Shown here: one piece after another, positions 23,208 to 24,320 of the stretch
How positions within the stretch are numbered: the first letter of the stretch is position 1
How the letters are laid out: every line of letters begins with the position of its first letter
Source of the DNA: Thermomonas sp.
Lineage (GTDB): Bacteria; Pseudomonadota; Gammaproteobacteria; Xanthomonadales; Xanthomonadaceae
Direction: 5' to 3'
Assembly: GCF_023953935.1 (NCBI RefSeq)
Contig: NZ_JAMLIW010000007.1
Location: 1-64,000 of the forward strand
Length of the DNA: 64,000 nucleotides
Translations under genes and position numbers: made by a program
The notes under the pieces: generated by a model
Database searches by the model: none
What the model was told of the DNA's origin: nothing
Seen by the model: the letters and a program-made list of their open reading frames with translations, nothing else

Positions 23208-24320
23208 ATGGCTTTCCACGTCTATATTCTGCGTTGCGCTGATGGCTCGTATTACACGGGTCACACCGACAATCTTGAAAAACGCATGGCCGAACACCAG
23301 GCTGGTGCGATTCCCGGTTGTTATACGCATGACAAACGCCCGGTTCACCTGAGCTTTGCGCAGGATTTCCCGACTCGCGAGGAGGCCTTGGCTTCGGAGA
23401 TGCAGATCAAGCGCTGGAGCAGGGCGAAGAAAGAGGCACTGATGGCCAATGACTGGGGAAAGTTGCAGCAATTGTCGAAAAGCCGGTGTGCAGGCGGTCC
23501 CGTTCATGGTTCGACAGGCTCACCACGAACGGGAGTAGGCGGCTCACAACGAACGGGAGTAGGCGGCTCGCCACGAATGGGAGTAGACGGCTCGCCACGA
23601 ACGGGAGTAGACGGCTCACCACGAACGGGAGAAGGCGACTCACCACGAGCGGGAGTTGGCGGCTCAACACGAACGGGAGTAGGCGGCTCAATACGAACGG
23701 GAGAACGCTGCTCGCCACGAACGGAGGATGCGGGCTCATCACTTGCCGAGGTTGGCTCATCACCGACTGGGAATGCATACCAACCAACGACGGCTGTTCC
23801 AGAAGACACCCACTGGATGCAGCATGCCTTGGTACTGGCAGAACGTGCGTGCAACGAGGACGATGAGATTCCGGTCGGCGCGGTGGTGGTCGATGCCGAA
23901 GGTCAGGTGATCGGCGAGGGCTGGAACCGCAACATCGCCGAGTGCGATCCGAGTGCGCACGCCGAGATCGTGGCGATGCGGCGGGCGGGGCGGGCCGTCG
24001 GCAACCATCGGCTGGTCGGCTGCACGCTGTACGTCACGCTGGAGCCCTGCGCGATGTGCGCGATGGCCGCCGTGCACGCGCGCATCGCCCGCGTGGTGTT
24101 CGGGGCGTTCGACCCCAAGACCGGGGCGGCGGGCAGCGTGTTCGACCTGCTGGCTGACCCGCGCCACAATCATCGGGTGGCGGTCGTCGCCGGTGTGCTT
24201 GCCGACGAATGCGGCCAGCGGCTTCGGCAGTATTTTCGCGGCAAGCGCGCCGGCGTCGGAACGGGGGCGGCCGGGGCGGACGGCGAGGGGCCTTTCCCGA
24301 CCGGGCAGACTTGTGGTTAA
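23208..24320 (+). CDS. GIY-YIG nuclease fused in frame to tRNA adenosine deaminase TadA
   Basis: One uninterrupted 370-residue frame. Residues about 1-88 are a UPF0213-type GIY-YIG domain: [16 protein letters not shown] carries the (G/V)IY-YIG-like strand pair, with EKRMAEH and the [21 protein letters not shown] helix. Residues about 104-183 are ten imperfect 8-residue repeats (GSPRTGVG type) encoded by 24-bp DNA repeats. Residues from about 204 are TadA, with zinc/active-site motifs HAE and PCAMC. TadA makes inosine at tRNA-Arg position 34 and is essential. No stop codon separates the domains. Whether one protein is made or TadA starts separately at ATG 23817 is unresolved. Confidence 0.65.
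23517..23756 (+). repeat. 24-bp tandem repeat array linking GIY-YIG and TadA
   Basis: Ten consecutive 24-base units beginning GGCTCACCACGAACGGGAGT; units 1-8 differ at 1-4 positions, units 9-10 (709-756 of this kilobase) are degenerate. The array starts inside a complete 31-bp REP unit (23502-23532) and keeps its 3' half (GGCTCACCACGAACGG), so it grew from that REP. The unit length is a multiple of three, so the frame stays open and reads GSPRTGVG per unit. Confidence 0.9.
23817..24320 (+). CDS. tadA: tRNA-specific adenosine deaminase (possible independent start)
   Basis: Alternative reading of the same frame as the preceding fusion entry: the first conventional start codon after the repeat array is ATG 23817, giving a 167-residue TadA beginning [11 protein letters not shown]. 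Known TadA proteins usually have several residues before this point, and the upstream sequence has only a weak AGAAG element. Catalytic features are SAHAEIV (zinc His, proton-shuttle Glu) and [10 protein letters not shown] (two zinc cysteines), with the LLADPRHNH segment typical of the family. Cytoplasmic; deaminates A34 of tRNA-Arg(ACG). The enzyme assignment is secure, the start is not. Confidence 0.8.

Follow-up and report, generated by a model that had tools for sequence, protein, structure and literature searches.

A GIY-YIG nuclease gene bracketed by inverted REPs probably reads through its repeat into tadA

How does the gene of a small nuclease come to share one open frame with TadA, the tRNA adenosine-34 deaminase and an essential tRNA-editing enzyme, and is the shared frame translated as a single protein? 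The question is raised by positions 23208–24320 on the forward strand of the window, that is, the whole stretch of 64,000 nucleotides of Thermomonas sp. DNA analysed here. On the basis of the list of open reading frames and the translation, this region forms one frame of 370 residues that is free of stops up to the TAA at 24318–24320, and it remains open in the 5' direction as far as ATG 23181.

In order, the frame encodes a GIY-YIG domain, a linker of 24-bp period derived from the REP, and TadA. The GIY-YIG domain (23208–23483, forward strand) is matched by Pfam PF01541 at residues 4–75 (E 8e-19) and is related to the solved structures 1zg2 (E 1.2e-15) and 1ywl (E 2.5e-11); it is a minimal UPF0213/Slx1-like GIY-YIG domain and a predicted nuclease. 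The TadA domain (23802–24251, forward strand) is matched by NF008113 at residues 199–348 (E 1e-60, 204 bits, the cut-off being 150), displays the zinc motifs HAE and PCxxC in its translation and represents the sole TadA copy of the genome (E≤1e-25). On the 5' side lies an open reading frame (21250–22809, forward strand) that we take, from its sequence, to be guaA, encoding GMP synthase, and that serves as the landmark for comparing the junction between genomes. A stem-loop repeat of another kind (GGCCTGTTTGCGNACCAN... and its mirrored arm) lies after guaA at 22804–22870 and constitutes a second repeat family at the guaA–tadA junction, with several copies in the sister locus L014. About two tandem copies of an 87-bp repeat with GTGATTGGTGATTCGC-like units are located at 1743–1911.

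REPs are among the commonest repeats of bacteria, and two of them bracket the nuclease domain in inverted orientation. The downstream REP (23499–23533, forward strand) is a complete element of about 35 bp with an exact core at 23508–23530, is translated in frame and opens the linker array (23517–23724, forward strand), for which the tandem repeat search and the translation give a period of 24 bp, 8.7 copies, 86% matches and eight residues per unit with a consensus of about SPRTGVGG. The upstream REP (23155–23189, reverse strand) contains a second exact core, inverted, at 23158–23180, and is accompanied by an array of inverted half-REP units (23086–23171, reverse strand; 24 bp, 3.6 copies; tandem and inverted repeat search) that is the mirror image of the linker array. 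As single-stranded DNA, both REPs fold better than shuffled sequences, with z values of −3.1 downstream and −4.0 upstream. Five REP core sites with up to three mismatches are present in the window, compared with 0.00 expected from shuffles, and the 2.59-Mb genome carries 79 with at most one mismatch, whereas the reversed control yields none. A GTAG/CGTC tag at the end of the REP was not seen by eye at the REPs of the window and of locus L258, although the spacer of the array does contain GTAG. We note that a further inverted REP is situated at 21211–21243, directly 5' of guaA, where the listed guaA frame starts inside it (GTG 21217). The initial annotation had described a single open frame running from a GIY-YIG domain through repeats into TadA, which is borne out by the absence of stops and by the profile matches to both domains. 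Its ten 8-residue repeats are better counted as 8.7, since ten includes degenerate edges, and its 31-bp REP unit with a 24-bp period is correct in the period but not in the unit, which repeats only the right half of the REP together with the spacer rather than the entire element.

Where translation of TadA would begin depends on few candidates, since the only in-frame ATG, GTG or TTG codons between the nuclease domain and TadA are ATG 23577 (23577–23579, forward strand) and ATG 23817 (23817–23819, forward strand). The former lies inside the array, where Shine–Dalgarno pairing reaches −6.4 kcal/mol but at a distance of about 13 nt, so that the earlier claim of no conventional start holds between the array and ATG 23817 but does not extend to the array itself. 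The latter encodes the Met of the WM motif in TadA and has almost no Shine–Dalgarno pairing (−0.9 kcal/mol). Unfused tadA genes have a start within 22 codons before the WM motif at all 44 readable loci of the 47 examined; of the seven fused genes, those of the window and L083 lack such a start, whereas the other five have one at 4–21 codons. A candidate reading in which the tadA ATG became ACG was rejected, because at the position of the L013 and L014 starts, ten codons before the TadA Trp, the window has CCA (23784), followed by ACG ACG.

One alternative is that two proteins are made, the nuclease frame merely continuing while TadA starts inside it, at ATG 23577, at ATG 23817 or at a rare start, in which case the shared frame would be incidental or a form of coupling. 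The in-frame position of ATG 23577 and the nearby start kept in five of the seven TadA fusions are compatible with such an arrangement. At ATG 23817, however, not only is the pairing negligible, but initiation would remove the conserved Trp just before it and more, and no start is found within the 45 codons on its 5' side, so that we consider separate initiation of TadA unlikely at this locus. Rather, we favour a genuine fusion gene, because the genome has no other TadA, because the start codon found at the unfused genes is missing here and because six other genomes have the same in-frame fusion. As no separate start can be recognised for the window tadA, the most likely product is one 370-residue protein that begins at the nuclease and contains TadA as its C-terminal part. 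The fusion gene proposed at the outset is therefore supported as a gene, while the single polypeptide is what we infer from it. Internal starts are possible where an ATG, GTG or TTG is nearby, as in those five TadA fusions and in 12 of the 26 methyltransferase fusions described below.

Comparison of the guaA–tadA junction among relatives identifies the nuclease as the later arrival. No nuclease is detected at any of 47 unfused tadA loci (tblastn, E≤1e-3, about 1.5 kb on each side per locus), and no REP word is present within 1 kb 5' of tadA at 27 of the 29 loci L010–L038, L027 having one and L035 two. A close homologue of the nuclease is likewise absent from each of the 24 further genomes of the genus, 15 of which contain a paralogue with 33–41% identity. 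The guaA stop and the WM motif of TadA are 23 nt apart in G162, 497 nt in its relative G246 and 1004 nt in the window, and the insert in G246 has the same REP at both ends in inverted orientation. Further unfused gaps of 20, 32, 169, 337 and 1160 nt are observed, and other inserts therefore occupy the junction in some unfused lineages. On these comparisons the nuclease gene is the newcomer at tadA, having apparently arrived with its REPs.

The nuclease–TadA fusion is found in six more genomes with linkers of differing length, each of them stop-free and in frame, the distance between the nuclease and TadA matches ranging from 61 to 457 nt. Repeat arrays can be mis-assembled and might in principle create such a frame, yet the recurrence of the same architecture in these six genomes makes an assembly artefact extremely improbable. 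TadA is single-copy in all 25 genomes checked (E≤1e-25); separately, two TadA matches with 76–78% identity (G007:C82 and G007:C65) occur within one genome and reflect a duplicate or contamination. Of the initial proposals, the fusion stands, but not as a joining of two resident genes by a repeat, given that the nuclease seems to have come in with its REPs; as to the proposed variation of the linker with copy number, the lengths compared differ between genomes while staying in frame. A sister genome in which a stop separates the two genes was not encountered, and the sisters within the genus have no nuclease at this position.

A single fusion inherited together with tadA is disfavoured, as the seven fused TadAs do not group together but lie dispersed between unfused ones. 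In a TadA tree of 52 rows they require seven changes (shuffled mean 6.8), each lying beside unfused relatives, and the well-supported branches force at least three changes to or from the fused state. The nuclease tree requires three changes for the seven TadA-fused rows and five for the 26 methyltransferase-fused rows; 12 of its 132 inner branches are well supported, and the supported TadA-fused pairs are L039 with L081 and L073 with L087. The pattern may have arisen through repeated arrival at one site or through one old gain that was lost in many lineages.

Beyond tadA, homologues of the nuclease with 53–72% identity are distributed over Nitrospirota, Planctomycetota, Verrucomicrobiota, Chloroflexota, Myxococcota and Pseudomonadota (23 of 24 loci), where single phylum labels are possibly wrong through mis-binning, because most carriers are metagenome bins. 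The clade was delimited at E≤1e-20 in the family sample and 1e-24 in the phylum sample, limits chosen after inspection of the tables, and comprises 140 unique loci after removal of second entries for one locus (L159 for L073, L246 for L136, L177 for L137 and L179 for L129) and of the broken L255. The counts of REP orientation, of the frame through the REP and of REP stops, as well as the TadA tree, were run with L246 included, which affects N only, whereas the residue counts and the nuclease tree use 136 rows, 135 of them different, and additionally leave out L079, L080, L089, L091 and L138.

When the rule is a 13-base core no more than 250 bp 5' of the gene or no more than about 200 bp past the domain, a REP accompanies the nuclease at 76 of the 140 clade loci, on both sides at 61, and is absent nearby at 64; the subgroup L160–L168, nine clade loci, has one REP site in total. 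The nearest upstream REP is inverted in 55 cases versus 8, and the nearest downstream REP is direct in 63 versus 11, which is the arrangement seen in the window. REP sites are concentrated at the gene, with 70 per 48.6 kb within 600 bp of the nuclease compared with 18 per 181 kb further off (34 clade loci), 11 of these 18 falling in one locus, while shuffled sequence gave none. Among 398 Pseudomonadota genomes, the REP is present in 12 of the 14 that carry the clade and in 9 of the 384 that lack it (p 9e-16; 12 of 21 and 9 of 377 when the clade limit is set at 1e-20), and among 247 genomes of the family of the window in 7 of 9 and 17 of 238 (p 1e-6), both p-values being overstated because the genomes are related. 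Copy numbers vary from 1–5 in several clade genomes to 79 in the window genome and 220 in G141. A REP as a general property of GIY-YIG genes was not supported, none of 34 other GIY-YIG loci having one, a control that is weak because only four of them (L040, L050, L054 and L099) are known to come from REP-bearing genomes.

To our knowledge, RAYT, the REP-associated tyrosine transposase, is the only enzyme known to be tied to REPs. RAYT is not supported as the enzyme behind the present REP, as the 20 Y1_Tnp loci of 12 genomes bearing this REP all lack it within about 1.5 kb, and four of these genomes, G141, G008, G068 and G062, have no Y1_Tnp match. These observations also bear on the possibility that the REPs are passive repeats gathering at gene ends, with the nuclease as cargo moved by REP recombination or by RAYT acting in trans. 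REP-rich genomes without the clade (72 copies in G302, 60 in G257, 29 in G008) and the one Y1_Tnp gene of the window genome would fit such a scenario, whereas the separation of REPs from Y1_Tnp loci, the clustering of sites at the nuclease and the finding that four of the five genomic copies in G072 reside at the nuclease locus speak against it; we regard passive REPs as a rather unlikely explanation. In G257, which has no clade nuclease, the REPs form REPIN-like inverted pairs about 80 bp apart, and its eight Y1_Tnp loci are free of them.

In-frame continuation is not restricted to tadA, as at 44 of the 140 clade loci the nuclease frame extends, free of stops, into a partner that could be identified: TadA in 7, a SpoU-type RNA methyltransferase in 26, a JAB-type peptidase in 5, an RluD-like protein in 2, a DOMON-like protein in 2, and MeaB and alanine racemase in 1 each. 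Of ten partners examined as examples, nine are confirmed by Pfam, whereas the protein that we presume to be DOMON-like has no Pfam match. Locus L251 has a long tail without an identified partner and was not counted as fused. When the same partners next to a nuclease are sought in all frames, 44 of 45 within 500 nt are in frame, a count that is biased because the partners were identified from fused tails; the exception is L205, and in L075 an RluD-like gene is located 547 nt from the nuclease with five stops between them. A codon-position GC test intended to give an unbiased in-frame rate was dropped, as it mis-called known fusions. Between divergent genes for an RluD-like protein and a JAB peptidase, the nuclease is found pointing both ways and is in each case fused in frame to the gene it faces (5 and 2 loci; L190, L203, L211, L216 and L223 in one orientation, L204 and L229 in the opposite one).

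The methyltransferase fusions offer the larger sample for the question of internal initiation. All 26 are in frame over 21 different linker lengths, and a start within 25 codons is missing in 14 of them, compared with none of 18 readable unfused genes out of 20 examined (p 1.4e-4), which argues against two separately initiated proteins. The methyltransferase is single-copy in all 32 genomes checked, 10 of them with the fusion, and no nuclease is found beside the unfused gene in 20 readable loci. The 51-nt repeat of the methyltransferase linkers folds no better than shuffles (z −0.5). Coupling does occur as well: in Sphingomonas parapaucimobilis (L311, 2501–3549; NZ_CP155752.1), the nuclease and the methyltransferase overlap by ATGA in different frames, a pair that is coupled and not fused. 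This overlap adds to the case for two proteins and, together with the L205 neighbour in another frame, counts against our preferred explanation, as do the nearby starts kept in part of the fusions, the 64 clade loci at which this pattern detects no REP core and the REP-rich genomes that lack the clade.

The sequence of the repeat itself appears suited to read-through. At 49 of the 70 loci with a direct downstream REP, the nuclease frame passes through the REP core, and 47 of these 70 REPs are stop-free whichever of the three forward frames is read, compared with none in the reverse direction and 34% of shuffled units. The downstream orientation is therefore the translatable one. Residues Y6, Y16, R26 and E64, which we take to be the catalytic residues of GIY-YIG, are kept in 98–99% of the 136 clade rows and in 95–100% of the fused ones, so that the fused nucleases are not decaying. 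Copies broken by an internal stop or a frameshift are observed at L089, L091, L138 and L255, and unfused copies therefore do decay.

We consider it probable that a REP-bracketed nuclease unit entered the guaA–tadA junction and reads through its REP into tadA, giving one protein. In this scheme, a GIY-YIG gene between two inverted REPs entered the junction in the lineage of the window, for which the relatives without the nuclease, the inverted REPs and the scattered distribution of the clade are the grounds. The downstream REP, open in the nuclease frame, has grown in 24-bp steps and forms a stop-free bridge into tadA, TadA most likely becoming the C-terminal part of the protein initiated at the nuclease. 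Other lineages and other genes show the same outcome. As a likely consequence, the nuclease would be expressed with, and be hard to delete from, a household gene, the dependence on the upstream start tying it to an essential one, and the catalytic residues are likely kept because the nuclease acts on or maintains its REPs. From the sequences compared here we infer a mobile nuclease–REP unit, the stop-poor REP of which allows reading into the genes that follow. Since relatives of the nuclease have joined other household genes as well, this gene and its repeat may anchor themselves onto genes that the cell cannot lose. More tentatively, and with somewhat less than even confidence, we propose that the GIY-YIG nuclease is the enzyme of an untagged REP family, constituting a second, RAYT-independent REP system in which a REP–nuclease–REP unit crosses phyla and repeatedly becomes indispensable through read-through into an essential gene whose start then decays. 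The scheme would provide a route for the birth of fusions, in which a repeat with few forward stops joins a roaming gene to its downstream neighbour, TadA, the RNA methyltransferase, the RluD-like synthase and alanine racemase being examples of genes so joined.

In the literature searched, which included few subscription journals and no preprints, we found no report of GIY-YIG linked to REPs or fused to TadA, none joining GIY-YIG with tRNA adenosine deaminase or with Sphingomonas repeats, none treating two of GIY-YIG, YhbQ and UPF0213 together, and no related title for the REP core sequence as text; papers in which GIY-YIG occurs with REPIN, RAYT or TadA were likewise unrelated, judged by their titles. 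The TadA passage in PMC3482391 is without a GIY-YIG link, the portion consulted of PMC9465073, the sole bacterial paper among the matches listed, names GIY-YIG and RAYT only as separate clade-specific genes, and neither transposase nor nuclease occurs in the text of PMC12306157. A GIY-YIG survey, in the part available to us, does describe, for Erythrobacter litoralis, a single Slx1-like GIY-YIG domain joined to a SPOUT methyltransferase, a fusion whose functional relevance was doubted (Dunin-Horkawicz et al. 2006, PMC1564403); the order, with the Slx1-like domain before an RNA methyltransferase, is that of the methyltransferase fusions described here, and the protein very likely belongs to the 26. 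Neither "palindrom" nor "deaminase" is used in the text of that survey (PMC1564403). One GIY-YIG/SPOUT fusion has thus been in print since 2006. The same survey raises the question of whether more GIY-YIG proteins are molecular parasites (PMC1564403, in the part available), to which, as to that of further REP enzymes, the clade and its repeat offer a candidate answer.

The closest parallel in organisation is the RAYT–REP system, for which two inverted REPs are described, in the portion of the source available, as invariably flanking the RAYT gene (PMC2817692). In both cases, a short enzyme gene resides between two inverted REPs and the same REP is dispersed in the genome (PMC2817692, same portion). 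Here, however, a GIY-YIG domain, the only one detected by Pfam, replaces the Y1 (IS200/IS605-type) tyrosine transposase, no GTAG-type tag is seen by eye and the REP reads into neighbours in frame. For selfish spread, the GIY-YIG homing endonucleases, which PMC1564403 lists, are the nearest analogy, but the present genes have neither an intron nor a DNA-binding NUMOD domain, Pfam matching nothing beyond the partner enzymes. In fold and sequence, the nuclease resembles the minimal single-domain UPF0213/YhbQ-like GIY-YIG proteins (1zg2, 1ywl), yet other such members (34 loci, 34–47% identity to the window protein, few of them from genomes known to bear REPs) are separate genes without a REP. Palindromic repeats translated in frame within host proteins are also known from the Rickettsia palindromic elements; unlike these, the repeat described here accompanies a nuclease gene and joins two genes.
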